The translations under genes and the position numbers were made by a program. Under the pieces are notes generated by a model. That model made no database searches and was not told the origin of the DNA. It worked only from the letters and a program-made list of their open reading frames with translations. A DNA stretch of 64,000 nucleotides, taken from the NCBI RefSeq assembly GCF_000384215.1, contig NZ_KB913032.1:583021-647020 (forward strand), given 5' to 3'. Below are positions 832 to 16,831 of this stretch, piece by piece. This DNA comes from Amycolatopsis alba DSM 44262. Its GTDB lineage: Bacteria; Actinomycetota; Actinomycetes; Mycobacteriales; Pseudonocardiaceae. Every line of letters starts with the position of its first letter. Within the stretch, counting starts at the first letter, position 1.

Positions 832-1464
832 TCATCTCCTCCCACCGGATTTGCGGGACACGGTGAGCCCCTTGGCCATCGACGCGATCCCGGCGCTGAT
901 CGAACGCACGTCCTCGATGAGCCGGTCTTCGTCCTGCTGACCAGGGCACACCAAGGCCGACAGTGCTTTCGTCGCACCATGGCCCAGTCCCCGCACGACG
1001 ATCCGCACGCCGAGCGCGCACAACTCCCTGGCCGCCCCGACCGCGGGCCCCCGTTTCCCCACATCACCGTCGCCGAAGACGCACAGGACGCGATCACCGG
1101 TCAGCGGCGCGAGATCTTCTTTCGCGATCCGCAAGGTCGGCAGCAGATTGTTGCCACCGGTGGAAACGGCGGCCTCGAGCCGATTCGTCAGCTCCGCGCG
1201 GCTGCTCCCCGGCCGGACATACGCCTCGACGTCGTGGTTCCAGAGCACGAGCCCGCAGTCGTACTTCGCGTCGAAGGCCTCGTCAAGAAAGGCGATCCCG
1301 CCGTCGACCGCCTGCCGCAGCGGGCTTCCGCGCATCGAACCGCTCACGTCGATGCACAGCAGCACGGTTCCGCGGTATTTCGCTTGCAGAATCCCGAAAT
1401 GCGGGCCGGGCGGGGACTGCGTCAGCCCGGCACCCTCGAATCGCTTGCGCACCCAGCCACTCAT
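832..1464 (-). CDS. VWA-domain protein, last gene of the Hsp70/GTPase cluster
   Basis: 210 aa, essentially a lone von Willebrand A domain. The metal-ion-dependent adhesion site is intact: D-V-S-G-S-M at residues 39-44, followed by a conserved TGGNN segment and a later FGDGD. VWA domains mediate metal-dependent protein-protein contacts and often partner with ATPases or GTPases. There is no signal peptide, so it is probably cytoplasmic. It starts 13 nt after the Hsp70 stop and closes a nine-gene minus-strand operon. Its target is unknown; I infer an adaptor or substrate-recognition role from context. Confidence 0.85.
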   Translation of the reverse strand: MSGWVRKRFEGAGLTQSPPGPHFGILQAKYRGTVLLCIDVSGSMRGSPLRQAVDGGIAFLDEAFDAKYDCGLVLWNHDVEAYVRPGSSRAELTNRLEAAVSTGGNNLLPTLRIAKEDLAPLTGDRVLCVFGDGDVGKRGPAVGAARELCALGVRIVVRGLGHGATKALSALVCPGQQDEDRLIEDVRSISAGIASMAKGLTVSRKSGGRR

Positions 1465-1477
1465 GCACCCTCCGAAC

Positions 1478-2995
1478 TCATCGCCGGACCGTGATGGCGC
1501 CGAGCGAACCTGCCAGCCGCCGCGTCGTTTCCGCGTCGGCGACTCCGTCCATGTACGCCTCGAGCGCCAGCGCGGTCCCGGAACCCGGTTCCCGCGCGGT
1601 GACGCCGAGCAGTCCGTCCTCGGTCACCCGCAGGGTCACCTCGATCAAGGAACCGGCGGGCAGCGGGGGCAGCCCCGTCAGTTCGCCGTCGAGGACACGC
1701 CGGTTGTCCGCGACCTCCTCCGACGGCAGTTCCCCCGCCTGCTCGAAGATCTGGATCCGCACCGCGTCCTGGCCGTCCATCACGGTGCAGAAGGCCGTGG
1801 TCCGGCTCGCCGGGAGCGGGTCGTTCCGGTGCACCGTGTGGGCGACCATCTGCCGCGTGCCGCCGGGATCGTGGCTGTCCTCGATGAGCACCCCGAAACT
1901 GCGCGGCACCACCGACCGCGTCGACGACCGCTCCCGCGCCGAAGAGGCCAGCTGACCGGCCCGGATCGCCGCGCCGCGGACCACCGCGTGATCCGGGTCC
2001 ATCAGGCGCGGGGCGCGGCCCACCCGTTCCCCGACGGCCGCCGCTATCGCGGGCATTCTCGTCGAACCGCCGACCAGGATCACTTCGTGGACCCGCTGCA
2101 CGCCCTTGCCCGACGCGTCGGCCAGCAGCCGGGTGACGACCGACAGGGTCCGCTCGACCAGATCCGCGCCGACCCGCCCGAGGATCGTCCGGTCGAACGG
2201 CACGGTCACCCGGTCCGTGCCGAACCGCACCGTGACCGGCCGCGAGACCCGGCTGCTCAGGTCTTTCTTGGCCGTCTCGGCCAGAAGCCTGGTCTCGTGC
2301 AGGAATTCCTCGTCGTCGAACGGGTCCGCGTCGGGCACCGCGTTGACGAAGCTTTCGACCAGGAGGTCCGCGATCCGCTCGTCCCAGTCGGCGCCCCCGA
2401 GCCTGCTGTCCCCGTCCGTGGCCACCACTTCCGCGCCGTCGCGCGTGATGCGCAGCACCGTGGTGTCGAAAGTCCCGCCACCGAGGTCGTAGACGAGGAC
2501 GACGTCGCCCGTCCTGGCCGTGACACCGTAGTGCAGTGCCGCCGCGACCGGTTCGCTGAGCAGTTCGAGCACGTCGATCCCGGCCAGCCGCGCCGCCTGA
2601 TACGTCGATTCCCGTTCACGGACCCCGAAATAGGCGGGAACCGTAATGACCGCGCGGACCGGTTCGCCATCCACGCCGAGGTGCGCCTGCGCGTCTTCGA
2701 CCATGCTCCGCAGGATGAGCGCCGAGATCGATTCGGGGGTGTGGGCGACCCCGTGGAAGAACAGTTCGAACTCGGTGCCCATCCGCCGCTTGATCAGCGA
2801 CACCGCGTTGTCCGGGTCCACCGTCCCGGACTCGCGCGCGGCGGTACCGACCAAGGCCGACGACGCCGACTCGAAGTACACCACCGACGGCGTGATCAGC
2901 TCGTCCACCCTGTTCCGCAGGACGGTCGGCTCCCCGTTCCCGTCCAGGGCCGCGACCGCCGAATAGGTCGTCCCGAGATCGATACCGATGATCAC
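1478..2995 (-). CDS. Hsp70-family chaperone (paralogue 1), no C-terminal lid
   Basis: 505 aa from the GTG at 2995, which overlaps the upstream stop as GTGA; a longer in-frame reading exists but its first 75 residues overlap the neighbouring gene and look non-coding. The ATPase domain has the phosphate-1 motif GIDLGTTYSAVAAL at the N-terminus, YDLGGGTFDTTV (phosphate 2) and the adenosine motif LVGGSTRMPAI. A beta-sandwich substrate-binding region of about 130 residues follows, but the helical lid and EEVD-like tail of DnaK (about 620 aa) are missing. It is a specialised Hsp70 rather than housekeeping DnaK; a second one and a GrpE-like protein are encoded upstream in the same operon. Confidence 0.9.
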   Translation of the reverse strand: MIIGIDLGTTYSAVAALDGNGEPTVLRNRVDELITPSVVYFESASSALVGTAARESGTVDPDNAVSLIKRRMGTEFELFFHGVAHTPESISALILRSMVEDAQAHLGVDGEPVRAVITVPAYFGVRERESTYQAARLAGIDVLELLSEPVAAALHYGVTARTGDVVLVYDLGGGTFDTTVLRITRDGAEVVATDGDSRLGGADWDERIADLLVESFVNAVPDADPFDDEEFLHETRLLAETAKKDLSSRVSRPVTVRFGTDRVTVPFDRTILGRVGADLVERTLSVVTRLLADASGKGVQRVHEVILVGGSTRMPAIAAAVGERVGRAPRLMDPDHAVVRGAAIRAGQLASSARERSSTRSVVPRSFGVLIEDSHDPGGTRQMVAHTVHRNDPLPASRTTAFCTVMDGQDAVRIQIFEQAGELPSEEVADNRRVLDGELTGLPPLPAGSLIEVTLRVTEDGLLGVTAREPGSGTALALEAYMDGVADAETTRRLAGSLGAITVRR

Positions 2996-3183
2996 ACTGC
3001 CTGCCAGTTCATCTCGGTCCAGGCCGCGCGGACACCGTTGACCCAGGACAGGACCAAGTCCTTCAGTTCCGGATACCAGGCGGCGACCACGAAGGCGGCC
3101 GCCAGCAGCAGCACGGCGACGATCGCGATCACGGCGACGCGGTAGCTCAGGTAACCAGGCGGGACGAACGTACGCGCGGTCAT
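2992..3183 (-). CDS. Small single-pass membrane protein
   Basis: 63 aa. Residues 15-36 form one strongly hydrophobic segment (VAVIAIVAVLLLAAAFVVAA), preceded by a short Arg-containing N-terminus and followed by a Trp-containing tail. The ATG overlaps the stop of the upstream GTPase gene (ATGA) and its own stop overlaps the GTG of the Hsp70 gene (GTGA), so it is embedded in the translationally coupled operon and is likely a real gene. I do not recognise a family. A plausible role is membrane anchoring of the complex next to the membrane-spanning GTPase. Confidence 0.7.
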   Translation of the reverse strand: MTARTFVPPGYLSYRVAVIAIVAVLLLAAAFVVAAWYPELKDLVLSWVNGVRAAWTEMNWQAV

Positions 3184-4802
3184 ACCGCTTCCTCCGGCTC
3201 TTTCTCGGCGGGTTCCGCACGCGCGGGACCCGTGTCAGGCCACAGCTGAAGACCCGAGCCTGCGACGACCCACGCGAGCGGACGGGCGGGCGACCGCGGA
3301 TCGCTCACCGGGACCCCGGCGAGGGAGGACACCAGGAAGTACTCGACTTCACCGAACTCGCGCTCGGCGGACAGCACGAGATTGTCGAGCCCGGCTCGTT
3401 CCAGCCACTCGCGGACGTTGCCGGGTCCCAGGTCGGCGGCAGGCGGCAGACCGGCGAGCAGGTCGGCCTTCACCACCGCCACCGCGAGCCGTCGTTTCGT
3501 GGTGGCGACCCGGAAGTCCTGCAGCCTCTTCGCGGTCACGTGGTAAACCCGTTCGGGGGCCTCCGACGCCGGCGCGGCCCGCGAAACGACCTCGGACGTG
3601 GCGCCGAGCTGATCACGCACCCAGGGGATCGAGAACGGGTCGATCACGAACACCAGGCCCTGCGCGTGGTCAAGGAACTCGAGAGCGGTGTTGTCGTCGC
3701 GATCGGCGTAAAACTCCCCGGCCGCGTCGAACAGGTGCAGGAGTGCCCGGCGCTTGCCCGCGGTGTAGCGCGCGGTGACCGCACGGGGCAGCTCACCGAA
3801 CGGCGTCTTGACCGTGTCGCCACCGGAACTGATCAGGGACACCGCCGCGTCGAAGGTCTGTTCGCTGTCCTCGTCGACGAAGTCCAGGACTCCGCCGTTC
3901 GCGGCGACTCCGTCGCGGATGCCGAGCAGCCCCGTGTAGACCAGCCTGGTCTTGCCCGCGGAAACCGGGCCGAACACCGGCAACCGGACATCGGTCACGA
4001 GCGTCGCGCCACTCCGCAGCGTTTCCCCGCACCGCGGGCAACGGGGCCGCGTCTTCCCGGCCATCCGCAGCACCGAGGTCGGCAGTACCCGGCCGCATCC
4101 GCACCGGCGCCAGAGCCCGCCGAGCCTGCCGGGCCGGATGTCACGATGCACCTTCCCGCACCCAGGACAGTCGAAGACGGGCAGGGAGGTCACGTGGTAA
4201 CAGGTCTGGCAGCTGCCGCTCGCCTTCTTCTGCCGTCGGATCAGCTGGTCGGTCACCCGCAGCAGGCCGGTCGGCAGGGCCCACACGACCCAGCCCGCGA
4301 ACAAGGCGAACGCGGCCACCAGGAGAATCGCCGTCGTGGCCGCCAACGCTCCCAGGCTCACCCCGGACCAGAGCGGGACGAACAGCAGCACGGCGCCGAT
4401 CCGCCCCGGCCACGAGTCCGCGGCCGTTCCCCGGATCCAGCTCCAGCCGCGGCCGAGCAGTTCGAGATCGGCCCGCCACACCCGGAAAAGGTCGGCTCGG
4501 GCCTGCGCGGCGAAGTAGGTGGGCCACGCCCAGTCCCGGTCGAAAGTCGTGTCACCGCGCCGTTTCGGCAGTGCGTTCTTGTCCGCCACGACGTCGTCCG
4601 GGGTGATCAGCCTCGGCCCGCCGGTCCGGCCGACGAGCGTGAGGATCGCGGAACCCGCCGCCATCAGGACACCGGCCCCCATCGTCATGGGCGCGGCGAA
4701 GATCAAGCCGGGCAACAGGAACCACATCAGGCCGGCGACGACCAGCCAGATGACGAAGTAGAGCGCGACCATCGCCAGCGCGAAACCGATCAGGTACTGC
4801 AC
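3180..4802 (-). CDS. Membrane-anchored double-GTPase-like protein with zinc ribbons (DO-GTPase2 type)
   Basis: 540 aa. N-terminal hydrophobic segments at about 5-35 and 40-57 and a pair around 137-178 predict membrane insertion. A Cys-rich block at 198-259 (CQTC, CPGC, CGC, CPRC) predicts two zinc ribbons. The GTPase part follows: Walker A GPVSAGKT at 278-285 and a DxxG-like LFDAAGEF. This order matches the TRAFAC-class 'double-GTPase' families (DO-GTPase2) described from comparative genomics of bacterial conflict systems. It pairs with a second zinc-ribbon GTPase and a GAP1-like protein in the same operon. NTP specificity cannot be read from the sequence. Confidence 0.75.
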   Translation of the reverse strand: MQYLIGFALAMVALYFVIWLVVAGLMWFLLPGLIFAAPMTMGAGVLMAAGSAILTLVGRTGGPRLITPDDVVADKNALPKRRGDTTFDRDWAWPTYFAAQARADLFRVWRADLELLGRGWSWIRGTAADSWPGRIGAVLLFVPLWSGVSLGALAATTAILLVAAFALFAGWVVWALPTGLLRVTDQLIRRQKKASGSCQTCYHVTSLPVFDCPGCGKVHRDIRPGRLGGLWRRCGCGRVLPTSVLRMAGKTRPRCPRCGETLRSGATLVTDVRLPVFGPVSAGKTRLVYTGLLGIRDGVAANGGVLDFVDEDSEQTFDAAVSLISSGGDTVKTPFGELPRAVTARYTAGKRRALLHLFDAAGEFYADRDDNTALEFLDHAQGLVFVIDPFSIPWVRDQLGATSEVVSRAAPASEAPERVYHVTAKRLQDFRVATTKRRLAVAVVKADLLAGLPPAADLGPGNVREWLERAGLDNLVLSAEREFGEVEYFLVSSLAGVPVSDPRSPARPLAWVVAGSGLQLWPDTGPARAEPAEKEPEEAV

Positions 4803-4805
4803 GTC

Positions 4806-7256
4806 TCACCTGTCCTTGTTGGAACGGCGTGACCACCAGGCGGGCTTCTTCTCCTCCGCCTTCTTGGCCGCCTCCGCGCCGCGCTGTTTCGCACGGGCGG
4901 TCTGTCCGGTCGGCTTGACCTCCTTGACCCCGCTGAACTGGCGCCACTCCCCCGCGACTCGCTGATCGACGGCGTCGAGCAATCGGCTCACCCTGGCGAG
5001 GCGCTGCTTGTCGGCTTGTTTGAGCCATTTCCGCAACGCGCGCTCGGTCTTGACGGCCAGCTGCTCGGTCGTTCCGGGGGCCCCGACGGCCACGAAGGTG
5101 AGAGCGACCGCGGTGTCCGCGCGCTGCGTCAGGACCGAGCCGTACCAATGACGCGGCAGTTCACGCAGGAGCACCGCGGGGAGCGTGCCCCCGCTCCGTT
5201 CGAGGAGTTTGCCCGCTTCACCGACCGGCAAGCGGTCGAGGAACACGGCCGTGATGTCGGCGGCGCGGGCGGTCATGATCGGCTCGGTGATCTGCCGCAA
5301 GCCGGACGCCCGTGGCGGACGGCCGCCGGCGACCACCGCCAGCCAGTCCTTCAACCCCTTGTCCTGCCTCGCGAAGTCGGCGAACTCGGGGCGCCCCGGA
5401 AGGTCGCCGTGCGAGTACGCGAGCGCGAGGACGTCCAGCCCCTCGACCGAAAGCCGGGGGCCGATCACGGCGTCGAGCGCTTCCCCGACCTTGTCCCCGA
5501 GCCAATCCGTCAACGGCCCTGGCGCGAGCTTCTCCAGCAGGGAAGTCAGCTCCGCGATCGAAGGAAGGGAGTGGGCGAAGGTCGCTCGCCACATCAGATG
5601 CCCCCGCGTCTCCGGATCCGCCGACCGGAGACTGTCCAGCACGTAGTCGATCAGCTCTTCGCGGTAGGCGGCGTCGGTCCCCGCGATCGCCGAAGCGGTG
5701 ATCTCGCTGTCCAGCGGCGTGCTGACATCGGTCGCGGTCTCGACCAGGATCTCCCACCAGAACCGCTTGATGTCGTCGCGGTAGTGGGGACCGTCGGGCC
5801 GCTCCAGCAGTCCCGCGAGTTCGTCACGCAGCAGATCGATCATCTGCTCGCGGCAGGACCACCGGTCCGGTTCGAGCGGGGCGTTCTTGTGCTCCACCCA
5901 CCAGCCGGTGAATCTGCGGGCCCCCTCGGTGAAGCCCCCGACGTTGGGTGTCACGTCGAATCGGGTGCACAGCCGCAGCAGCTCGTCCATCCGCTCGGGT
6001 TCGACGACGTTCGCCGCGGCCTCGGCGATCGCCGCGAGCGAACCGGACTCTTCGACGACAGGGACGGCCCCGGTGAGCTGCGCCAGTTCGGCCTCGAACA
6101 GCGCGCGGATCCCCCTATCGGCGAGCTCGCGTCCGGCTCCGTGCCATTCGGTCGCTTCGGGCAGGGCGCGCAGCGCGGTGATGTCCGGGTCCGCCGCCAA
6201 GACGGCCTCGAGGACCGGGTGGACGACCTCTTCCGGCTGCGGTGCGGGGCAGTCCGCCAGCCACCGCACCAGATCGCCCGCGTGGCCGGTCCCCTCGGCC
6301 GTTTCCCCCAGCGTCACGATCGCCGCCACCGACCGGTCCGAGGCGGACGGCCGCGCCTCCTTCCCGGCGAAGCGCTGGGCCAGTTCGATCGCGTCGACCA
6401 CGTCGTACGGGTCTTCCCGCAGGAAACGCGGCACCCAGAACCGGGCGCCTTCGGTGAACTCGATCTCGGAATGGCGGCCGGTGGTGAGGTTGAAGACGAC
6501 GAAGCCGTTGTCCCGCGCGGGATCGCCGAACGAACCCGCCCAGTCGTCGTGCACCGCCAGGACGTCATGCCTGCTTTGCCGCGGATTCGTCGCGAACACG
6601 CGGAACCCGAGGCGCAGGGCGCGCCGCTGTGCCATGAGCACGGTGCCGGCGGAGATCCAGCCGAGCACCTCGGTGACGTCGGCCCCGACGAACAGCACCC
6701 GCCGTCCACCGGGCTCGTGGACGAGATCGAACGCGGACTGGACGGCCAGCAGCCACTCTTCGCCGTCAGGGCGGCCGAGCACCCATTCCCGGACCGCGTC
6801 GATTCCCCAGGGCCCGGCTTCCGGATCCGCCGCCACCGGCTCGCAGTTCGTGGTCGGGGCGGCCTTTTCCGCCCACCACGGGGCTTCCCACAACTGTGCC
6901 GGCCGGACCAGCCCGTAGGTGTCCGGATCGGTCGTCGCGACGGCGTGCGTGAACTGGTTGCCCTCGCGGACCCCGTTCGCCTCCGTCCCCAGGTAGCGCC
7001 CGCGGGCGGTCGCGTACACCCCGTCGTCGTGAACGTGGGTCAGCGAGGGCGGATAGTCCGCGACGTCCCGCTGCTCGCGCATCCACGCGACCGGCGCCTC
7101 GTAGAGCGACGTGCGCTGGACCAGCGACATCGTGTCGTGCGATACCCCGGCCGAGACCGCCTGGAACTGGAATCCGGCACCACCGCGCAGTCCCTGTCCC
7201 GGAACGCAGTCGGTGTAGTACAGCGAGTCGAACCGGCTCGGCTCCGTCTCGTTCAA
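4806..7256 (-). CDS. GAP1-like GTPase-associated protein
   Basis: 816 aa from a TTG at 7256 that overlaps the upstream GTPase stop (TTGA); an alternative start 14 codons upstream would lie inside that gene. The N-terminus (FDSLYYTDC, GQGLRGGAGFQFQAVSAG) is the signature I associate with the GAP1-N2 family, GTPase-associated proteins encoded beside double-GTPases. The central part is helical and rich in acidic residues, and the C-terminus is very basic (KRGAEAAKKAEEKK then Trp-Trp-Ser-Arg-Arg). No membrane segment. Expected role, known only from gene neighbourhoods: partner or regulator of the two GTPases encoded on either side. Confidence 0.75.
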   Translation of the reverse strand: MNETEPSRFDSLYYTDCVPGQGLRGGAGFQFQAVSAGVSHDTMSLVQRTSLYEAPVAWMREQRDVADYPPSLTHVHDDGVYATARGRYLGTEANGVREGNQFTHAVATTDPDTYGLVRPAQLWEAPWWAEKAAPTTNCEPVAADPEAGPWGIDAVREWVLGRPDGEEWLLAVQSAFDLVHEPGGRRVLFVGADVTEVLGWISAGTVLMAQRRALRLGFRVFATNPRQSRHDVLAVHDDWAGSFGDPARDNGFVVFNLTTGRHSEIEFTEGARFWVPRFLREDPYDVVDAIELAQRFAGKEARPSASDRSVAAIVTLGETAEGTGHAGDLVRWLADCPAPQPEEVVHPVLEAVLAADPDITALRALPEATEWHGAGRELADRGIRALFEAELAQLTGAVPVVEESGSLAAIAEAAANVVEPERMDELLRLCTRFDVTPNVGGFTEGARRFTGWWVEHKNAPLEPDRWSCREQMIDLLRDELAGLLERPDGPHYRDDIKRFWWEILVETATDVSTPLDSEITASAIAGTDAAYREELIDYVLDSLRSADPETRGHLMWRATFAHSLPSIAELTSLLEKLAPGPLTDWLGDKVGEALDAVIGPRLSVEGLDVLALAYSHGDLPGRPEFADFARQDKGLKDWLAVVAGGRPPRASGLRQITEPIMTARAADITAVFLDRLPVGEAGKLLERSGGTLPAVLLRELPRHWYGSVLTQRADTAVALTFVAVGAPGTTEQLAVKTERALRKWLKQADKQRLARVSRLLDAVDQRVAGEWRQFSGVKEVKPTGQTARAKQRGAEAAKKAEEKKPAWWSRRSNKDR

Positions 7257-8449
7257 GAGGCGCTCCGTTCGACGACCTTGAACAACCCGAGAAGCCACAG
7301 CAGCGGCTCGTCGACGCGGAACGGCCGGACACCACGGGGATCGACCCGGTTGCGGTCGTAGTCCGGCTCGGCACCGAGCGAAGACACCGCGAAGTACCGG
7401 TACTTCTTGTAGTGGGAACGGAGATGGGTGTCGATGTCGTCCGCGTCGAGATCGGTCAGCAGCGCACGCAGGTGCTCGTCGGTGTCCTTGCCGTGCGCTT
7501 CGTCGTACTTCGCGCCGGGAGACGGCGCCTTCAGCAGCGGATGATCATCACCGAGCATCGGGAAGAAGGCGTCGAACTTCGAGAACACCACCGCGATCGG
7601 GGTGGTGATCTTCCGCCGCGCGCTCACCCCTTGGCTGCTGCGCAGCAATTCGGTGATCCGGGTGAGGACGTTGATCGGCGGCTCCGTGTCCCGCCTGCTC
7701 GCTTCCGGCACGGAGATCCGGTCGAGCGAACCCTTGAGCTGGAACGGATCGAGCAGGACGATGAGACCGTCGGCGGAGGTCAGGTACGCCTGGGCGTTCA
7801 CGAACTCCTGGGTCGTCATGTCCTCCCCCGCCGCGTCGTAGAACGACAAGGTCGTCGTGTTGTGCACTTCGCGGCCGAAGCTTCGCTTGGGCTGGCGCCA
7901 TTGCAGGACCAGCGGCACCTTGATCCCGTCGGCCGCGCTCGCCGTCGTCTCGAACAGCCTGCTGTCACCGAACAGGGCCTGCTCGTAGTCGGCGAGCCAG
8001 TCGCTCACCGAACCGATCCCGCCCTGCTGGTCGCCCGCGAACCAGATGTCCGCGGCGAACCGGCGCCGGATGTTGTTCCGCAGTTCGTGGGCGAGCACGG
8101 TCGTGTACACGGTCTTGCCCGCGTTCTTTCCGCCAACCATGCCGATCAGCGGGCTGCGGCTGTCCGCGAAATTCGCGGGCAGGGGGGTCCGGCAGACCGG
8201 GCAGGCCCTGATCCCGGTCGAGGTTCCGCAGTCCGGGCAGGGCGCGGTCCTGGCCGCGATCGGGTTGCGCGATTCGGGCGGCGGGAACGTCGGCAGCGCG
8301 GCCGAGCCGAACCCGGTGAGCCGTTGCCGGTCCTCGTCGATCGCGCGCTTGCAACGGTCGCGGCCCGGTGAAGCCCGGCCGGTGCACTGGAACCTCAGCT
8401 TGCCGAGATCGATCCGGTGGTAGCAGTAGGGGCAGGCCACTTTGGACAT
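7253..8449 (-). CDS. Zinc-ribbon GTPase (DO-GTPase1 type)
   Basis: 398 aa. Two N-terminal metal-binding modules: CPYC (6-9) with Cys22 and Cys33, and CPDC/CPVC (71-86). The GTPase domain begins at about residue 100 with Walker A GGKNAGKT (106-113) and has a DxxG motif in FYDAAGED (switch II). No membrane segment. The arrangement is like the TRAFAC-class DO-GTPase1 family. It overlaps the GAP1-like gene by 4 nt and shares one base with the upstream Fn3-like gene, so stoichiometric synthesis is likely. The two operon GTPases are similar in layout (ribbons followed by P-loop), but only the other one carries membrane helices. Confidence 0.78.
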   Translation of the reverse strand: MSKVACPYCYHRIDLGKLRFQCTGRASPGRDRCKRAIDEDRQRLTGFGSAALPTFPPPESRNPIAARTAPCPDCGTSTGIRACPVCRTPLPANFADSRSPLIGMVGGKNAGKTVYTTVLAHELRNNIRRRFAADIWFAGDQQGGIGSVSDWLADYEQALFGDSRLFETTASAADGIKVPLVLQWRQPKRSFGREVHNTTTLSFYDAAGEDMTTQEFVNAQAYLTSADGLIVLLDPFQLKGSLDRISVPEASRRDTEPPINVLTRITELLRSSQGVSARRKITTPIAVVFSKFDAFFPMLGDDHPLLKAPSPGAKYDEAHGKDTDEHLRALLTDLDADDIDTHLRSHYKKYRYFAVSSLGAEPDYDRNRVDPRGVRPFRVDEPLLWLLGLFKVVERSAS

Positions 8450-11076
8450 CAGGACACCTTCAGCTGCTTGACGGGAGGATCGACGATGTGGACACCGGCG
8501 GTGTCGACGAAACAGCGCACCCAGTAGGGCTTCCGCAACCGCGGCAGAGCGGTGATCAGATCGACGTCGTGATCCGGGGAGAGCGCCCGCTCGCCGCGGA
8601 TCAGCTCACGGCCGTCCGCCGGACGTCTCGGCATCACCGGGCCTTCCGCGGCGACGACGATCACCGTGCACCGCGGGATCGCCTGGTCCGCCCTCAGCAG
8701 CACCTTCACCGTCCCGCCGCCGACGAGGGGTTTCCGGGTCATGTCGACGGTGTAGCGCACCGTCGGCGGCCGGGCGGGCACGGTCAGTTCGACGTCCGCC
8801 GACGTGCACTCGCCGCCCTCGGCCAGCACCTTGGTCCGGACCTTCACCCGGACCTCGACCTGTCCGCACGGGATCCGGCAGCCGCCGCCGGTCTGGTACT
8901 GCTGCCGGGTCAGCAGCTGCTTCCCGGATTCCTGCCCGGCCTGCCAGCGGACCTCGGCGGTGCCGACCTGCTCCGGCCATTCCCAGGCGAGAAGAACGGC
9001 GTCGCCGAGCCGACGGCACTGCAGGCCGGACACGGGCAGTGCGAGGCCCAGTGCTTCGTCGTGCCCGCGGATCGCCCCGTTCGGCCCGACGGTGAAGGCG
9101 ACATAGTGGAAACGGCCGGTCGGGACGTCGGCGACGAGCGTTTGCCAGCCGTCGTTCTCGTCACGGGTGCCCAGCACCTCTTCGCCGTAGTCTCCGACGT
9201 CCGCCGGGGTGACGACTTCGCCGAACTGCCATCGGCAGGGCGTGGCGGCCCGGCGGATCACGACTTCGGTGTCCGCCTGTGCCTTCCAGGCGAGTTTCAC
9301 CCGAGGGCCTGTGCCGCCTTTGGCCGCCTGAAGAGTCAACGCGCGCACCGGAAGCGGGCGCCCGCCGACAGCCGTGCGGACCCGCACCGGCGCCGACGCG
9401 GCCTCGGTGCCGTCACCACGGCGGTAGCGGGCGATCAGCGTGTAGACCTGCTCGTTTCCCTCGGGCGCGGTCCGGTCCCGGAACTGGGTCCGGCCGCCGG
9501 TGGTGATCGTGACGCCGTCACCACGGACCACGTCCACCCCGACGGCTTCGGGGTGGACGATCCACCGGCCTTCGATCGCCCCGTCGGAGAACGACAACCG
9601 GACGTCGCCGACACCGGGGAGCACCTCGGCCGTCACCCCGGCCGGGCGGGACCAAGGACTTCCTTCCGCCGAAGCGAACACGGCGTATCCTACCGGTGTG
9701 CCCGCGGGGACCTTCCGATCGACCGCGACCGACTTCCCCGCCTCGACCATGATCACCACCCCGTCATCGGGGTCCGCTGGCACCCGCCCTTCCTTGCGGA
9801 CCAGCCGATAGCGGGTTCCCTCGCCATGGCTCGCGGCAGGACGCCACGAAAGGCGGAGCGTCACGCCGTCTTCACGGGCCACCACACCGAGAACCGGTTC
9901 CGGCGGGATACGACGCAGCTCCGCGCGCAGCTCCTCGTCGTCACCGGCCAGCGCGACAGCCTGGCGGAACCGGTTCGCCGCGTCCGCCTCGGCACCTTCA
10001 CGCAGGGCTTCCCGCGCTCCGGCCACCAGTTCCTGGACCTTGGCCTGCTGCCGGTCGACCAGCGCGGTGGCCGCCGCCGAGTCCTCCGCGCCGGCGATCG
10101 AGGAGAGCATCTGCTGGGCCGCGCGCAACATGCCCTGCTCCAGCAGGTCACGGATCGAACCGAGGTTTCCCGACGGCGCACGGCCCGATTCGTTGAGCAC
10201 GCTGAACAACGCGAGCCGCGCTTCGTCGGGATCCCAGCGCGTCTGCCGGAGCTGCTTGAGCAGGACGCTGGGCGGCGCGCCGTGCCCGTGCTGCTTCCGG
10301 ATCTCGTCGACCAGGTGGAAGAGCGCCAGCTTCCGCAGGTCGCCGTCCTTCGCGGCGGTGGCGAGGATCCCGAGCGCCTGACGCGCGCCCTGGTTGCCCG
10401 CCCGTTTGTTCTCCCGCTCGACCGCCCGGTTCACCACGGCGGCCGAGAGATCCACCGGCCTGTCCAGCAAGCGGAACGACGCGGCGTCGTCGTGGAGGAG
10501 CTCCACCACGCTGCTCTTCGCGGCGTCGATCAGGTGATCACGGAGATGCCGGTACGTGGTGTCGAGCAGCCCGCTCGCCTTCGGCAGTTCGACCGGAGTG
10601 CTCCGGCGCACGCCCGCCTTCGCCACCGCCTCCTCGACTTCGTCCGGCGACAGGGACGAGTAGGCCGCGCGCACGGTCGCGTCGAGCTGTCCCGGCGCGA
10701 TCAGCCCGAGCTCACCGAAGTGTTTTCGCAGCGTCGCGGCGAGATCGTCGACGCGCTCCTGGTTCGCCCCCTGCCTCGCCGCGGCGTACGCCTGCCACCA
10801 GGCGATCGCCGAGAACTTCGCGCCGTGCTCCTGCTGGAGCCGCTCGTCGGCCTTGAGGAAGGCGCGGTAGACCTTCTGCGCGAACCCGGCGCTGCTGAGC
10901 CCTTTGTTCCAGCGGGAGCGGACCTCACGCAGCCGTCGCTCCACCTCCTGGTCGGACATGGCGAGATCGATCGCGTACCGGGCGACGAGATCGTCCGGCA
11001 GCTCCCGCCCCGACCATCCGCGCAGCGGTTTGACGACGGCCTGTTCGTAGGCCTTCGCGTCGAAAGGCGTCGCCAT
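8449..11076 (-). CDS. Large helical plus Fn3-like protein of the Hsp70/GTPase cluster
   Basis: 875 aa. Residues 1 to about 400 are predicted helical, with many charged residues and a Q-rich coiled segment (LVDRQQAKVQELVAGAREAL). From about 400 to the end there are repeated beta-sandwich-like units with Fn3 flavour (WRPAASHGEGTRYRLVRKEG; AWKAQADTEVVIRR; LAWEWPEQVGTAEVRW). No catalytic motif, signal peptide or membrane helix is visible. It starts 1 nt after the Hsp70 stop and abuts the GTPase gene. Similar large proteins recur beside double-GTPase genes in actinobacteria. I infer a scaffold or target-binding subunit; function unknown. Confidence 0.7.
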   Translation of the reverse strand: MATPFDAKAYEQAVVKPLRGWSGRELPDDLVARYAIDLAMSDQEVERRLREVRSRWNKGLSSAGFAQKVYRAFLKADERLQQEHGAKFSAIAWWQAYAAARQGANQERVDDLAATLRKHFGELGLIAPGQLDATVRAAYSSLSPDEVEEAVAKAGVRRSTPVELPKASGLLDTTYRHLRDHLIDAAKSSVVELLHDDAASFRLLDRPVDLSAAVVNRAVERENKRAGNQGARQALGILATAAKDGDLRKLALFHLVDEIRKQHGHGAPPSVLLKQLRQTRWDPDEARLALFSVLNESGRAPSGNLGSIRDLLEQGMLRAAQQMLSSIAGAEDSAAATALVDRQQAKVQELVAGAREALREGAEADAANRFRQAVALAGDDEELRAELRRIPPEPVLGVVAREDGVTLRLSWRPAASHGEGTRYRLVRKEGRVPADPDDGVVIMVEAGKSVAVDRKVPAGTPVGYAVFASAEGSPWSRPAGVTAEVLPGVGDVRLSFSDGAIEGRWIVHPEAVGVDVVRGDGVTITTGGRTQFRDRTAPEGNEQVYTLIARYRRGDGTEAASAPVRVRTAVGGRPLPVRALTLQAAKGGTGPRVKLAWKAQADTEVVIRRAATPCRWQFGEVVTPADVGDYGEEVLGTRDENDGWQTLVADVPTGRFHYVAFTVGPNGAIRGHDEALGLALPVSGLQCRRLGDAVLLAWEWPEQVGTAEVRWQAGQESGKQLLTRQQYQTGGGCRIPCGQVEVRVKVRTKVLAEGGECTSADVELTVPARPPTVRYTVDMTRKPLVGGGTVKVLLRADQAIPRCTVIVVAAEGPVMPRRPADGRELIRGERALSPDHDVDLITALPRLRKPYWVRCFVDTAGVHIVDPPVKQLKVS

Positions 11077-11077
11077 G

Positions 11078-12751
11078 TCAGCTGGAAACCGTGAGAGCAG
11101 ACACCGTGCTGGTCGCTTCGCGGACCTCTTCCTCGGAAAGCACGCTCACCCTGACCTCGATACGCAGGGATTTCCCCGTGCTCGGTTCGGTGGCCTCCAC
11201 CTTGAGCAGGCCCTCCTCGTCGACCTGCATCTCGATCTCGAGAGGCGATGCCTTCGGCAGCGCCGGAAGTCCGGTGATCGCTCCCTTGCCCTCGTTGAGG
11301 AACTTGTTCTCCTCCATCTCGGGGCCGGGCCGCGCGCCGGACTGTTCGTAGAGCTCGATTTCGATTTCCCGCTGGCCTTCGGCGACCGTGCGCGCCGAAA
11401 GCGTCTGGGGCCCCGTCGGCAGCGCGTCGTTGGCGTGGACGAGGTGCTCGACGTAGAAGCGTTCGGGTTTGCGTTCCCAGTCCGGGTCACTGGTGTCCAG
11501 GAGCTTGACGCCGAACGCCTTCGGCAGCACGTTCCGGGTCTGCTTGTCCGCGAGGCTGGTCAACGTCCCCGCGGCGATACCGGTGCGGCTTTCGAGATCG
11601 CTCACCACATCGGCGGCCCGGTCTTCGCCGTCGGTGGCCGAACCCGCCTTCTCGCGTGCTTCTTCCTGTTCCTTGTGGACGACGCGGCCGAGCGCGTAGA
11701 GAGCCGCGCCCTTCGCCACCGCGAGATGCGGATCGTGCAGTTTCGCCTCCCAGCCGAACTCCGCGCGCAACCGCTCGGCGACCGCGGGCATGCTGGTGGA
11801 ACCGCCGACCAGGAGGATCTCGTCGACCTTCGCGCCAGGAGCCTTGTCCTGCAGGGTTTCCAGCGTGCGCCGCACGATGTCGATGCTCTTGTCGAGGAGA
11901 TCCTTCGTCATCTCCTCGAACTGCGCGCGGGTGACGTCGATCCTGGCGCTGGCGCCCGCGCCGCGCAGTGCCACCGGCCTGGAGTCCACTTTGGACAGCT
12001 GCTTCTTGGTGTTCTCCGCCAAAGTGGACAACGACTGCAGGAACTCCTCGTCCTCCTCCGGGTCGATTCCCGGCGGGACCTGTTCGGAAAAGGACGCCAG
12101 CAGGTGATCCCGCAGCCGCGCGTCCCAGTCGGCGCCGCCGAGCCGGTCGTCGCCGTCGGTGCAGACCACCTCGATCTCGTCGGACGAGACACGGATGACC
12201 GTCGTGTCGAACGTTCCGCCGCCGAGGTCGTAGACCAGCACGGTCTTGTCCTGCGCCCCTGTCGTCGCCTCGTAGTGCAGGGCGGCCGCGACCGGTTCGG
12301 GAACTATGCCGATCACGTCGAGACCGGCGATCTTGCCCGCGTTCTTGGTGGCGTCCCGTTCCAGCATGCCGAAGTACGCCGGGACCGTGATGACGACCTT
12401 GTCGACCCCGCCGCCGCTGTACCCGGCGCCGTCCTGGGCCAGTTGCTTGAGGATCAGCGCCGAGATCGTTTCCGGGGTGTGCGTCTTGCCGTCGAAGTCG
12501 AACACCGCCTTGGTGCCCATCTCGCGTTTGACGAGCGAGACGACGCGATCCGGCTGGGTGACCGCGGACTCCTTGGCGACGGAGCCGACGACCACGTTCG
12601 ACTCGTTCTCGAAATACACCACCGAGGGAATGGTTTCGAGGTTGTCCGTGTTGCGGCACACCGTCGTCCGGCCGCTCTCGTCGACATAGGCGATCGCCGA
12701 GTAGGTGGTTCCGAGGTCGATGCCGAAGACCCGGAGGCTCCCGTCAGACAT
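11078..12751 (-). CDS. Hsp70-family chaperone (paralogue 2), no C-terminal lid
   Basis: 557 aa from the ATG at 12751 inside the end of the GrpE-like gene (8-nt overlap). ATPase motifs are intact: FGIDLGTTYSAIAYVD at the N-terminus, YDLGGGTFDTTVIRV and LVGGSTSMPAV. A roughly 40-residue acidic, charged insertion (around HKEQEEAREKAG) separates the ATPase domain from the beta-sandwich substrate domain, and the chain stops where the DnaK helical lid would start. It is clearly related to the other Hsp70 of the operon but longer. With a GrpE-like factor directly upstream and no DnaJ gene nearby, it is probably a dedicated chaperone for this system. Confidence 0.9.
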   Translation of the reverse strand: MSDGSLRVFGIDLGTTYSAIAYVDESGRTTVCRNTDNLETIPSVVYFENESNVVVGSVAKESAVTQPDRVVSLVKREMGTKAVFDFDGKTHTPETISALILKQLAQDGAGYSGGGVDKVVITVPAYFGMLERDATKNAGKIAGLDVIGIVPEPVAAALHYEATTGAQDKTVLVYDLGGGTFDTTVIRVSSDEIEVVCTDGDDRLGGADWDARLRDHLLASFSEQVPPGIDPEEDEEFLQSLSTLAENTKKQLSKVDSRPVALRGAGASARIDVTRAQFEEMTKDLLDKSIDIVRRTLETLQDKAPGAKVDEILLVGGSTSMPAVAERLRAEFGWEAKLHDPHLAVAKGAALYALGRVVHKEQEEAREKAGSATDGEDRAADVVSDLESRTGIAAGTLTSLADKQTRNVLPKAFGVKLLDTSDPDWERKPERFYVEHLVHANDALPTGPQTLSARTVAEGQREIEIELYEQSGARPGPEMEENKFLNEGKGAITGLPALPKASPLEIEMQVDEEGLLKVEATEPSTGKSLRIEVRVSVLSEEEVREATSTVSALTVSS

Positions 12752-13403
12752 CCATGCTTCCTTCCAGTTCGTTCTCGTTCGCCTTGCCGGCTTCTTCCGC
12801 TCCGCCGACCTGATCCGCCGAGGGCTCCCAGCGTCGGACGTGCACCTTCGCCGCGGTGGCCACCCGGTCGTTCGCCAGATCGCGATAACCATCGGCGACG
12901 ACCTCGGCGATGGTCCCGTCCTCGCCGGCACTCGACGCCGCCACCACCTTCACCGCGCGATGTTCACGGGGAGAGAATTTGTCCCCGGTTTCCGGCCTGA
13001 ACGGTTCGGTACCGCACCGTTCCAAGGCCAGTTCCGTGGTCAGCGCGAAAGATTCCAGTAGCTGAGCAACCCGTTCGCCGCTCAACTCGGCGGGAAGAGT
13101 GCGCACTTGCCGCAGGAGGTCGGCTCGCAGATTCTGGAGATCGGTGATCACCGGGCGCAGCAGGATTCCCTGTTCCCCGGCGCGAAGCCGTTCGACCTCG
13201 GCGTGCAGCCGGTCGATGACCCGCTCGCGGGCGGCCGCCCTGGCGTGATGGGCTTCGATCTCCGTCCCCAGCCGGGAAACGACGTCGGCCAGCCGCGCCA
13301 GGTCCGCGGTTTCGTGTTCGGCGACGCCGGACGGGGCCTCCTCGGCATCGTCCGCCGCGCCCTCGGCGACTCCGTCGGTACCCGCGTCACTCACGCCGGC
13401 CAC
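12744..13403 (-). CDS. GrpE-like nucleotide-exchange factor
   Basis: 219 aa if the GTG at 13403 is used; a second GTG three codons in (13394) also has a purine-rich leader, so the start is uncertain. Acidic N-terminus, long coiled coil (about 35-115), then the GrpE head-domain signature GDKFSPREHRAVKVV followed by GTIAEVVADGYRD. GrpE proteins release ADP from Hsp70. It is the first gene of the nine-gene operon and overlaps the Hsp70 start by 8 nt. The housekeeping grpE normally sits beside dnaK-dnaJ; this one is a specialised paralogue. Confidence 0.85.
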   Translation of the reverse strand: MAGVSDAGTDGVAEGAADDAEEAPSGVAEHETADLARLADVVSRLGTEIEAHHARAAARERVIDRLHAEVERLRAGEQGILLRPVITDLQNLRADLLRQVRTLPAELSGERVAQLLESFALTTELALERCGTEPFRPETGDKFSPREHRAVKVVAASSAGEDGTIAEVVADGYRDLANDRVATAAKVHVRRWEPSADQVGGAEEAGKANENELEGSMDV

Positions 13404-13752
13404 CCCTTTCCCACCTCGCGATAAGACCGTTCAGCATTCCAAGTCGCTGACCGGGGCGACACGTTACCGCTCGGCGGAACACGGCCGGATTTCGCCTTAC
13501 CCACCACTGTCGCCATCACCGCGTTGACGTATCCCCGGCCGATAAGCCCCATTGACAACTAATCACCATTCCGCCGACCGGACTTTTGTGGTAACAGGTT
13601 ACCGTCGTTCCCGCCCCCGGAAGATCGTTTCCTGTCGTCCACCACAGTGGAAACAGAAAACCGCACACCAGGCGCCCCGAATGCGCGATGCTGGACGGTG
13701 TCCGCGATCTCGGGAGGGGGTCGCGGACCTCAGCCATCACGAGGAGTCCGTT
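13404..13752. promoter_or_regulatory. Divergent intergenic region between the Hsp70/GTPase operon and a LuxR-type gene
   Basis: 349 nt between divergent starts; it must hold promoters for both directions. The only structured element I see is a short inverted repeat GGTAAC-AG-GTTACC at 13590-13603. The DNA around 13540-13600 is noticeably less GC-rich than the flanking genes, as expected for a regulatory region. No convincing -10/-35 pair could be assigned. Confidence 0.4.
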
Positions 13753-14391
13753 GTGACCGCGACAAGATCGGCCTGCAGCACGCCCGACGGGCCGGTCCAC
13801 GCCGACGACCTGCGACGACTCGACGACGTCACCGAAATCGACGCGCTGTTCGATGAACTCCACCGCCAGGTGAAGTTCCGGGCACGTGTCGTTTCGCCGG
13901 GGGAATCCGATTTCGCCGCACCGGCGGGCTCCGCACGGATTCAGTACCAGACCCTGGTCCGACGACACGAGATGGCGACGTTCTCACAGCGGAACACCCA
14001 GCCAGGAGAATTCCGTGTCCGCGAACACCTTCCTTTTCGAATGGTTCACGTCGACGATCGAATCGCGGCGGTTTCCGTAGCCGGGCGGTCCACGGACTCC
14101 ACTTTTGTCATTCGATCACCGTTGCTGCTCGGGTTGCTCGCCGAGTGGTTCGACCTGCTCTGGTCGGCGCCGGGGACCACGGCCCCGGCAGGCACGCCTT
14201 CGGCCACGCTGACGTCGAACCAGCGCCAGGTCCTCGGCCTGCTCCAGGCGCATGGCGACGAGACGATCGCCCGGCTGCTCGGGATCAGCGCCACGACGGT
14301 CCGGCGCCACGTGAAAGCGATCTACGAGAAGTTCGGCGTCAACAACCGTTTCGCGGCCGGAGTCGCCGCGGCGAAACTCGGCTGGCTGTGA
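13753..14391 (+). CDS. LuxR-type (HTH) transcriptional regulator
   Basis: 212 aa from the GTG at 13753, preceded by GAGGAG at suitable spacing. The C-terminus (about 155-212) is a LuxR/GerE-like helix-turn-helix: TSNQRQVLGLLQAHGDETIARLL, then SATTVRRHVKAIYEKFGVNNR. The middle (QTLVRRHEMATFSQRN, then FRVREHLPFRMVHVDDRIAAV) resembles the effector half of single-domain regulators that recognise a ligand or phosphatidyl-like domain, without a receiver Asp. It is divergent from the Hsp70/GTPase operon and convergent with the XRE gene. It could control the divergent operon; this is inference from position. Confidence 0.75.
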   Translation: MTATRSACSTPDGPVHADDLRRLDDVTEIDALFDELHRQVKFRARVVSPGESDFAAPAGSARIQYQTLVRRHEMATFSQRNTQPGEFRVREHLPFRMVHVDDRIAAVSVAGRSTDSTFVIRSPLLLGLLAEWFDLLWSAPGTTAPAGTPSATLTSNQRQVLGLLQAHGDETIARLLGISATTVRRHVKAIYEKFGVNNRFAAGVAAAKLGWL

Positions 14392-14415: not shown

Positions 14416-15705
14416 TCACCTCGCGGGCGATATCCCCGGCACCCGCAGCACACTCACCAGCCGCTGCCGCACCTCCCTCGCCGCCGCGTGGTTCTGCCGC
14501 CGGGCCAGCACCTGGGTCAGCTGCCTGAGGTCATGACGGATCGTGGCCGAGTCGATCAAGCGAAGCTGATCCAGCACGGAAGCCATCAGCTCACAGGCCC
14601 TGTCGAGTTCTCCCGCCGTGCCATAGGCGAGGGCGGCACGGGTGACGTAGCGAGCACGGCTGCGGTGAGCGTCGGGCGCGAATCGCGTCACCCCCCTGTC
14701 GAGCACTTCGGCCGCTTCGGCGGGCAACCCGAGGTCGTAGAGACACCAGCCGCCCACCAGCGCACTGAGATCAGGGGTGTACGTGGTCCCCAGTTCGGGA
14801 GTACCGGCTTCCGACTCGGCGCCGCCGAGCAGCTCGGCGGACAGGTCCAGCGCGCGACGGCAGGCCGCGTGATCCCCGGCCAGCGCGTGCCCTTGGGCCT
14901 CCCGCTGCGCGGCCAGTCCGCGGATGCGCGCCGGGGTCCGCTCGTCGAGCTGCGCCTGACGGGCCAGCGAGATCGTGGTCAGCGCGTCCGCGGCGTGCAA
15001 CGCGACATCGGCCTGCCGGACCAGCGCGTAGGCGGAAAGGGAATGATCACCGCCGAGCACGCCCATCCGCACCGCGGTCTCGGTCCACCAGAGCGCCATG
15101 CGATCGTCGCCTGCCTCCTGGGTCATCCAACCGGCGAACTCGGCGTAGCGCGCCGCCAGCCGCCAGAGCACCGGCCGGTCCTCCGGCGAGGCGTTGCCCG
15201 CCAGCCCGCGCAACGTCTGGGTGTCGGCGATGACACCGGGGAGCACCACCGCGGGCCCGGACACCTGGGCGAGGTGACGCGCGGACTCGAACCGGCTCCA
15301 GAACACCCCGGCGAGCGTGGTCACGTCCCCGCCGTAGGTGGCCCGGTCACCGAACGTCATGCCGAACTCGGTCTCCTTCGGCACTTTTTCCCCGCCCGGC
15401 ACGAAGAAGCCGGACCCACCCGGCGTCACGCCCAAGGTCCAGCCGTCCCGCTCCACGGCGTCGAGCTCCCTCGCCGGCGCCCCGGCCGCGACACCGTCCC
15501 CCACCAGCCGGAGCAGCTCCCCCTCCGCGCCCACCGCCGCGTCACACAACCGCGCGAGCTGAACGGTCGGCGTCTTCTGCCCGGATTCGATCTTGCTCAG
15601 GTGGCCCTTGCTGTAGTGGACCCGAACGCCCAGCTCGGTGAGGGAGATCCCTTCCGCCTCCCTTCGCCTGCGGAGTTCAGCGCCAAAAGCGGGCTCCCGC
15701 TGCAT
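14416..15705 (-). CDS. XRE-family regulator with TPR-like C-terminal region
   Basis: 429 aa. N-terminal XRE helix-turn-helix (about residues 8-60): GAELRRRREAEGISLTELG followed by SKGHLSKIESGQKTP. The rest is an alpha-helical, Ala/Leu-rich repeat region of the kind found in actinobacterial HTH-TPR regulators, with recurring units such as RALDLSAELLGGA and ACELMASVLDQLR. Its ATG lies 3 nt after the stop of the RES-like/TIR gene, so both are surely on one transcript. Likely a repressor or sensor for that effector; actinobacteria also have stand-alone members with unrelated roles. Confidence 0.85.
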   Translation of the reverse strand: MQREPAFGAELRRRREAEGISLTELGVRVHYSKGHLSKIESGQKTPTVQLARLCDAAVGAEGELLRLVGDGVAAGAPARELDAVERDGWTLGVTPGGSGFFVPGGEKVPKETEFGMTFGDRATYGGDVTTLAGVFWSRFESARHLAQVSGPAVVLPGVIADTQTLRGLAGNASPEDRPVLWRLAARYAEFAGWMTQEAGDDRMALWWTETAVRMGVLGGDHSLSAYALVRQADVALHAADALTTISLARQAQLDERTPARIRGLAAQREAQGHALAGDHAACRRALDLSAELLGGAESEAGTPELGTTYTPDLSALVGGWCLYDLGLPAEAAEVLDRGVTRFAPDAHRSRARYVTRAALAYGTAGELDRACELMASVLDQLRLIDSATIRHDLRQLTQVLARRQNHAAAREVRQRLVSVLRVPGISPAR

Positions 15706-15708
15706 GAT

Positions 15709-16701
15709 TCACCCCCTCGTCGTATCCCGGTCGGCCTTCGCCTTGGCCAGGATCGGTACCTGCTCGAACAAATCGTCGACGAAGTTCGTGACATCCGCGT
15801 CCGTGCTGCGATGCCGCAGATGCATGAACTGCAGGTCGGCCAGCCGCCGGATGTCCTCCGGCAACTCCTCCCTGACCAAACCGTCCCGCACGCCCACGAT
15901 CACCGGCACCACACAAACACCGACACGGAATGCCTCGGCGATCTCCCGGCGGACCCAGTCACTGCTGTCGTCGACCAGTCTCCGACCGTCGGCGTCGTAG
16001 GTTTCTTCCCATCTCCTGCCGATGACGGCCAGCAGAACCCGTGCCGCACGAACGCTTTCGATCAGCTTGTCCGCGAAATCGTCGCCCGCGGTCAGGCTCC
16101 GATGATCCCGGAACACCGCGTCGTCACCGAGGCGGCCACGGAGCTCGTCGTCGAGGCGCAGGATCTCTTCCGTGCCGCCCGCGGTCCGGTAGTTGATGAA
16201 GACGATCGGTTTGGAGGCGCGGGTGCGCACGCGGATCCGGTACGGCGCCAGCAGTTCCGTCAGCCGCCGCACCCCGTCGGGCGTGTCCAAGCCGAACGAT
16301 TCGCCGGGCAGGCTCGTGAACGTCCCCGTCTTCACCCGTTCGCCGGACAGCCACAGCTCATGCTCCGGCCACGCCTGCGAAGACGGCCATCTCGCACCCT
16401 CCACGTCGTCGTGGACAAGGGAAAGGTCCCGCGCCGGGGACTCCGTCAAGGAGACGAGAAGCTCCCGTGTCGTCTTGACGGCGGACAGGACCTTGCCTTC
16501 CAAACCTCGCCCGGCCAGGACGCGGCGCCCCTCCGAGGTGAATTTCGGTTCCGGGAGCAGGCTTTCGATCACCGCGCAGCCTCGATCCGCCGAGAACACC
16601 GCGCCCTCGGCAGGCAGGTGCACCGCCGGGTCCTCGCGGTCGTGCACCCGCCACAAGACCGTGCCCGCGCGAACGACGTGGCGTGCCCTTGCCTGCCTCA
16701 A
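15709..16701 (-). CDS. TIR-domain protein with an N-terminal RES-like domain
   Basis: 330 aa from the TTG at 16701, which has AGGAAGG eight nt upstream; a GTG at 16710 is also possible. C-terminal TIR domain, about 165-320: PIVFINYR, LGDDAVFRDHRSL, ARVLLAVIGRRW and DSSDWVRREIAEAF. Glu253 in W-V-R-R-E is at the position of the catalytic Glu of TIR NADases. Residues about 10-160 match the window's own RES protein by eye: AGTVLWRVH versus AGTLLWHIH, and GARWPSSQAWPEHELW versus GFIWPPRDGPERRSVV. Here the first-motif Arg (LWRV) and a later Glu (AVIESLL) are present. Both fold types act on NAD+. It is followed by an XRE gene and preceded by a tiny membrane-protein gene. TIR is certain; the RES call is my inference. 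Confidence 0.8.
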   Translation of the reverse strand: MRQARARHVVRAGTVLWRVHDREDPAVHLPAEGAVFSADRGCAVIESLLPEPKFTSEGRRVLAGRGLEGKVLSAVKTTRELLVSLTESPARDLSLVHDDVEGARWPSSQAWPEHELWLSGERVKTGTFTSLPGESFGLDTPDGVRRLTELLAPYRIRVRTRASKPIVFINYRTAGGTEEILRLDDELRGRLGDDAVFRDHRSLTAGDDFADKLIESVRAARVLLAVIGRRWEETYDADGRRLVDDSSDWVRREIAEAFRVGVCVVPVIVGVRDGLVREELPEDIRRLADLQFMHLRHRSTDADVTNFVDDLFEQVPILAKAKADRDTTRG

Positions 16702-16720
16702 GATCAGCACCTTCCTCGAG

Positions 16721-16831
16721 TCAACTCGGCCCGCCCGGAATCCCTCCGGCGTAGACGCCCAGAACGAAACCGACAAGCAAACACGCTACAGCGATCCTGA
16801 CCGCGACAGCCAAGGTCAAAAACGAACGCAT
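16721..16831 (-). CDS. 36-residue membrane peptide upstream of the TIR gene
   Basis: ATG at 16831 with AGAGGGG about 7 nt upstream. Residues 4-28 form a single hydrophobic helix (TLAVAVRIAVACLLVGFVLG) with one Arg near the N-terminus and one in the helix, ending in a Gly/Pro-rich tail. The stop at 16721 is 10 nt before the next gene's GTG candidate and 19 nt before its TTG candidate. No family recognised. Position suggests it is co-transcribed with the TIR and XRE genes; it might anchor or modulate the TIR protein, or be a type I-like peptide. Confidence 0.5.
   Translation of the reverse strand: MRSFLTLAVAVRIAVACLLVGFVLGVYAGGIPGGPS

Follow-up and report, generated by a model that had tools for sequence, protein, structure and literature searches.

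A RES-TIR fusion protein with an eroded RES half at a chaperone- and GTPase-linked locus of Amycolatopsis

RES domains are the NAD+ phosphorylases of toxin-antitoxin modules, and finding one fused to a TIR domain raises the question of what a protein of such mixed ancestry may do. The window, a 64,000-nucleotide stretch of the genome of the soil actinobacterium Amycolatopsis alba (G000), holds a gene for which a first-pass annotation had proposed this architecture from two short motifs, reading the product as a two-headed NAD+-depleting protein under the control of an adjoining XRE regulator. At the level of sequence the proposed architecture is a real fusion, and the reading that we favour with moderate confidence is that of a TIR effector linked to a locus made of an A6-RES-CHAT operon and a GAP1/Hsp70 cluster, with a RES half that would no longer be catalytic. 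The coordinates of the features are collected in the table, where the fusion is given from its farthest TTG. An alternative TTG at 16701 yields a protein of 330 residues, in which Glu278 of the 355-residue frame used here is the Glu253 originally noticed, and the database copy of the protein (P0001) has 333 residues.

Features of the window around the RES-TIR gene and the evidence on which each assignment is based
Feature	Position	Strand	Evidence
Stand-alone RES1, last gene of the CHAT operon	134..796	(+)	RES profile, 236 bits
vWA protein	832..1464	(-)	PF13519
Second Hsp70 (b)	1478..3220	(-)	PF00012
Second DO-GTPase	3180..4802	(-)	PF19993
GAP1 with N2, M and C domains	4806..7298	(-)	PF20013, PF20014, PF20052
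Zinc-ribbon DO-GTPase	7253..8449	(-)	PF19993
875-aa protein conserved in the cluster	8449..11076	(-)	No Pfam or NCBIfam match
Hsp70 (a)	11078..12754	(-)	PF00012
GrpE	12744..13403	(-)	PF01025
LuxR-type HTH regulator	13552..14391	(+)	GerE, PF00196
NsdA-family HTH/TPR regulator (first annotated as XRE)	14416..15705	(-)	HTH_31; NF053720, E 9e-42
RES-TIR coding frame	15709..16776	(-)	355 aa from the farthest TTG; TIR_2 and RES-profile matches
TIR half	15742..16215	(-)	Residues 188-345; PF13676, SARM1 alignment
Codon of Glu278, TIR catalytic-position Glu	15943..15945	(-)	Pairs with the SARM1 Glu (DWVHKEI)
Eroded RES-like half	16216..16686	(-)	Residues 31-187 of the 355-aa frame; HMM and profile-profile match
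36-residue hydrophobic ORF overlapping the RES-TIR frame	16721..16831	(-)	Conserved in G012

When the N-terminal ~160 residues of the window protein were searched alone against Pfam, no match was obtained, the RES model PF08808 included. Membership of this family came from profiles: against a profile of 16 stand-alone RES proteins the window N-terminus scored 69.6 bits, versus a maximum of 7.6 in 1000 shuffles, and hhalign paired 11 eroded N-termini with the same 16 proteins at a probability of 99.93%. Moreover, the two motifs shared with the stand-alone RES protein, which had first suggested the likeness, proved to be in register, both of them, across an alignment of 66 sequences. Among the full-length relatives from a database search, P0011-P0014 and P0016 were called as RES (PF08808) plus TIR and P0017 as RES, and in 23 aligned RES-TIR relatives RES was matched in 14 and TIR_2 in 22.

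The RES site comprises, in order, a first Arg (R1, in LWRVH), a second Arg (R2, in GRFD), a Tyr, a Glu and a Ser, five positions that we read as the active site because a distant canonical RES protein of the same genome (G000:C1:564143) shows the same five residues. Their roles were assigned by conservation, spacing and the paper on the NatT toxin (PMC11535050), and they were mapped by order and spacing only onto the residues named in that paper (R23, R82, Y93, S184 and N193). A search of solved structures with the RES profile returned antibody noise, with no RES entry among the best 60 of 76 matches. As the first-pass annotation had read, the fusion keeps the LWRVH Arg where RES1 has His; it also retains the Glu and the Ser, and it has lost the GRFD Arg and the Tyr, so that the five-residue site is incomplete. 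The distance from the first Arg to the Ser is 90 residues in the window protein versus ~133-137 in intact RES proteins (~47 residues gone), two stretches having been deleted, one with R2 and another central.

Two sets of fusions can be told apart by these positions. One keeps R1, R2, Tyr, Glu and Ser, or nearly so, and includes the intact relatives P0012-P0014, P0016, G061 and G383. The eroded set gathers the window protein, G012, G174, G212, G217, P0002-P0008, P0010, P0015, P0027 and P0033; in it the R2 stretch is gone, the Tyr is mostly lost (P0010 being an exception), R1 and Glu survive in most members and the Ser is present throughout, single cells of these rows being unsure (a Tyr is read for the G212 protein where its near-twin G217 has Arg). 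The G096 fusion retains an Arg at R2 and has lost its neighbours and the Tyr, and the G094 fusion, encoded beside a broken RES1, presents all five residues, which means that the RES head is not dead everywhere. The damage differs between the protein of its genus-mate G096 and those of the remaining groups, from which it follows that decay of the RES half probably happened more than once: the five residues are kept in G094 and not in G096, the Amycolatopsis group or the Kibdelosporangium fusions. As a separate observation, the Tyr is replaced by Cys in four fusions encoded next to the A6 gene described below (G156, G243, G244 and G246).

The TIR half is apparently an intact domain, predicted to destroy NAD. 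TIR_2 (PF13676) matches residues 192-324 with an E value of 3e-8, and in a single-sequence search that reached the TIR chains of SARM1 (E 5e-9), Glu278, in DWVRREI, fell on the Glu of their DWVHKEI. The Glu of this D-W-V-x-x-E motif is the catalytic residue of SARM1, and the TIR domain with a Glu at the catalytic position that had been proposed at the outset is borne out. This Glu is retained in 38 of the 40 RES-TIR fusions inspected, the two outside the count being P0010, with a broken C-terminus, and G383, where the extracted frame was wrong and where RES and TIR do lie within one open frame. PADLOC gave for the window protein only a marginal match to ThsB (E 0.0075).

These observations bear on the original idea of a two-headed NAD+ depleter, in which both halves of the window protein would be catalytic. 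Its premise stood, two NAD+-consuming families being fused here, and it is favoured by the first Arg, Glu and Ser kept in the RES site and by the existence of intact relatives. Two working heads in this particular protein are nevertheless very improbable, given the absence of R2 and of the Tyr, the two deletions and a RES half that evolves faster than the TIR half (dN/dS of 0.34 and 0.16, respectively, between the window genome and G012). The two-headed idea would fit the intact relatives better.

The immediate neighbours offer another possibility, a self-contained operon in which the hydrophobic peptide, RES-TIR and the regulator would form a membrane-tethered toxin with its own repressor. 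The regulator gene does start 3 nt downstream of RES-TIR, as first annotated, with the same gap in G012, and the tiny peptide ORF also exists as described and is conserved in this relative, where 6 synonymous-only and 4 amino-acid changes separate the 36 codons. Among the loci examined, however, the ORF was found in the window genome and G012 only, which leaves little to recommend the suggested tethering. The regulator, for its part, belongs to the NsdA family, so the neighbour of this RES gene is not the cognate antitoxin that adjoins it in RES-Xre pairs; when 12 further RES-TIR regions were examined, it adjoined the fusion in only two (G012 and G174), and in G043 it sits at 57% identity beside the same cluster, with no RES-TIR between it and the NUDIX gene. 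Because it is present at this locus lacking RES-TIR, the regulator does not depend on the fusion, and the dedicated control first attributed to it found no support. We consider such an operon improbable.

Other features of the surroundings can be mentioned here. A NUDIX hydrolase gene upstream of RES-TIR (16939-17511), most like NudE and under the curated cut-off, also adjoins the fusion in G012 and G174 and is kept in G043, where other TIR proteins are encoded a few kb beyond the regulator and NUDIX genes. The LuxR-type regulator gene is present at other GAP1/Hsp70 loci too.

On the other side of these regulators lies a large cluster with a predicted role in immunity (832-13403) that unites DO-GTPases, a GAP1 protein with an N2 domain, Hsp70 and GrpE. 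Kaur et al. 2020 (PMC7159879) delineated the GAP1-N2 GTPase conflict systems and, within them, a HSP70/GrpE theme, one of whose components is a FNIII-repeat protein fused to DnaJ or TPR. By its DO-GTPases, GAP1 with an N2 domain, Hsp70 and GrpE the window cluster matches this theme, and it also contains the 875-residue protein, in which neither Pfam nor NCBIfam recognised a domain. The words RES and CHAT are absent from the main text of that paper and also from PMC8195603, and our literature search found no paper combining 'RES domain' with 'CHAT domain'.

A RES gene comes close to this cluster through a (+) operon that starts outside the window (G000:C1:577003-583150) and encodes a TPR-CHAT protease (PF12770, E 2e-35), an Hsp70, A6 and then RES1. 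A6 is a 223-residue protein without family, for which the Pfam search gave nothing meaningful. It was also considered as a canonical RES antitoxin, for which hhalign returned nothing significant with a template alignment almost devoid of diversity, and it is called antitoxin-like from gene position only: A6 is directly followed by a RES gene in 38 of 39 loci, and in the window genome it adjoins RES1, not RES-TIR. The one A6 gene without an adjoining RES (L222, from G720) lies on a 12-kb contig. RES1 itself has His, Arg, Asn, Asn and Pro at the five active-site positions, four of which are thus lost, and this broken protein is still under purifying selection (dN/dS of 0.14 between G000 and G012), which speaks for a retained role.

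Neither gene should be confused with a separate, canonical-looking RES gene ~19 kb to the left of the window (G000:C1:564143-564799; PF08808, E 4e-19). It is preceded by a wHTH gene (G000:C1:563463-564041) found in 80 of 80 genus genomes, and because of this ubiquity the two genes resemble a toxin-antitoxin module of the RES type that belongs to the core genome, distinct from RES1 and RES-TIR.

How widely is the fusion distributed? In 80 genomes of the genus, matches over both halves were found in G000, G012 and G061 only. A search for the domain pair in other genomes, which had been suggested as a check, found RES-TIR in at least 13 of 390 family genomes from seven genera, with five candidates scored per genome, so that divergent fusions may be missed; for G012, G212 and G217 the match is confined to two thirds of the protein at the C-terminal side, and the ORFs supplied the N-terminal sequences. 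When 119 loci with an ORF for the TIR half were checked, a RES-like N-terminus appeared only in the same 13 genomes. A6 occurs in 28 of the 390, among them all 13 found to have RES-TIR.

The 13 loci follow two arrangements. In six (G061, G156, G243, G244, G246 and G383), seen in Saccharothrix, one Amycolatopsis and others, RES-TIR comes directly after A6 in the same orientation. The stretch examined there includes a CHAT gene, and no GAP1 was detected within ~20 kb, which argues that the fusion does not need the GTPase cluster; the G061 stretch also has Hsp70-like and DO-GTPase-like matches, and that of G156 encodes an Hsp70 as well as a more distantly related GTPase. In the other seven (G000, G012, G174, G094, G096, G212 and G217), A6 is followed by a stand-alone RES1, and RES-TIR flanks the GAP1/Hsp70 cluster on its GrpE side, a co-location thus seen in 7 of 13 loci; in G174 the A6-RES1 and RES-TIR arms are on different contigs. 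Genes for a ClpB-like AAA protein, a radical-SAM/4Fe-4S protein and a coiled-coil-like protein adjoin the A6-RES-TIR loci of G383, G246 and G244 (L137-L140 and L135-L136), the ClpB-like and radical-SAM domains having been called in G246 only, with look-alike genes in the other two.

Beyond the family, a class-wide sample of 394 genomes of the larger group added 11 with A6, none of them with a full-length RES-TIR match, and a CHAT relative was present on the stretch examined in 8 of these 11 loci. Within the family, 26 genomes carry a GTPase at least 70% identical to that of the window, 21 with A6 and five without it; RES-TIR occurs in 7 of the 21 versus none of the five, a difference that is not significant (Fisher 0.28; as all Fisher values here, computed without regard to the relatedness of the genomes). 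In G043 the CHAT-Hsp70 arm is present, A6-RES1 is missing and a 264-residue ORF takes its place. This ORF (L246/L247) and another, hydrophobic-looking one of 295 residues in G238 (L252/L253), both near Hsp70 at loci that have the CHAT-Hsp70 arm without A6-RES, are perhaps swapped membrane effectors.

A further regularity concerns the A6-linked RES gene. In genomes without RES-TIR its five-residue site is complete at every one of 25 loci (six of the 15 family genomes of this kind were read over ~40 kb and nine from the family search matches listed). In contrast, all seven loci that have RES-TIR as a separate gene carry a broken RES1, which has lost two to four residues and kept 1, 1, 1, 2, 2, 3 and 3 of the five (Fisher 3e-7, with the loci counted as if unrelated). 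Where RES-TIR itself is the partner of A6 (six loci), two proteins keep five residues and four keep four, with the Tyr changed to Cys. In a tree built for 13 loci from six proteins of the cluster, one fully supported branch parts the seven with RES-TIR from the six without it, and for this reason the independent events are perhaps few: the gain of RES-TIR and the breakage of RES1 may trace to one ancestor, different residues being lost later in each genus.

The possibility of a single ancestral event behind the 7/7 versus 25/25 contrast counts against our preferred reading, and it leads to the rival that RES-TIR is an accidental neighbour, an independent TIR effector with a neutral relic for a RES half, sharing the locus through shared chromosomal descent. 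The weaker constraint on the RES half than on the TIR half would agree with this, as would the one split in the tree and the UvrB/NUDIX flank common to G000 and G012. We nonetheless hold it to be unlikely, if less so than the alternatives above, given that A6 co-occurs in 13 of the 13 RES-TIR genomes found, through seven genera and two gene arrangements, that the dN/dS of the RES half stays below 1 and that RES homology is still detectable in every eroded form examined.

The reading of RES-TIR as a TIR effector tied to the A6-RES-CHAT and GAP1/Hsp70 locus, its RES half being no longer catalytic, is based on homologies, gene order, co-occurrence and residue losses. RES-TIR would be the effector of a chaperone- and GTPase-linked actinobacterial conflict locus, with TIR as its putative NAD+-cleaving head. 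The N-terminal RES domain, in decay and presumably incapable of NAD+ phosphorolysis, has most likely been retained for docking or regulation: a RES-RES or RES-A6 contact could dock the fusion, A6 may restrain it and the CHAT protease together with the GTPase/Hsp70 machinery might release it, with abortive infection or dormancy as the possible outcome. In one arrangement, the gene for a largely intact RES-TIR comes directly after A6 and close to that of a TPR-CHAT protease; in that of the window, the A6 slot is held by RES1, by now a pseudo-enzyme, with RES-TIR across the GAP1-N2/DO-GTPase/HSP70-GrpE cluster. Because the RES half is worn down and the RES1 active site is lost, the TIR half has probably taken over NAD destruction. 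A fuller version, which we put forward only tentatively and with less than even confidence, is that a CHAT-A6-RES locus gained a RES-TIR paralogue, that TIR then took over the destruction of NAD+, and that both RES domains were demoted to a pseudo-enzyme switch pair, gated by CHAT, GTPase and Hsp70, in which RES1 held by A6 would face the RES half of RES-TIR.

RES, TIR, CHAT and GAP1-N2 systems are all of known kinds. As far as our searches show, neither the fusion of RES to TIR nor a RES arm at the GAP1/Hsp70 locus has been described; the first-pass annotation knew of no described RES-TIR architecture, and the literature search likewise found no paper describing one. According to PMC11535050, a role in immunity had not been ascribed to any RES toxin-antitoxin system. 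Here RES recurs among the genes of a CHAT/Hsp70/GTPase conflict locus and is fused to TIR in some lineages, which connects RES toxins with CHAT proteases, TIR NADases and GAP1-N2 systems in a way that can be tested. Moreover, the intact, half-broken and broken forms offer a natural series for following how an enzyme domain becomes something different.

Compared with known systems, the window protein resembles RES toxins such as NatT (PMC11535050) in its homologous N-terminal half, and its relatives carry RES directly after the small partner gene A6 as RES toxins adjoin an antitoxin; unlike them, it has its RES domain fused to TIR, with an eroded active site, and A6, the partner, is matched by no Pfam model and shows no significant likeness to a canonical antitoxin. 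With TIR NADases such as SARM1 and bacterial TIR effectors it shares the TIR_2 domain and the Glu of D-W-V-x-x-E, whereas a RES-derived N-terminus stands where known TIR partners would be. Finally, the window cluster has the DO-GTPases, GAP1 with N2-M-C domains, Hsp70, GrpE, second Hsp70 and vWA protein of the GAP1-N2 systems as presented in the main text of PMC7159879, from which it differs in being accompanied by a CHAT-Hsp70-A6-RES operon and by RES-TIR.
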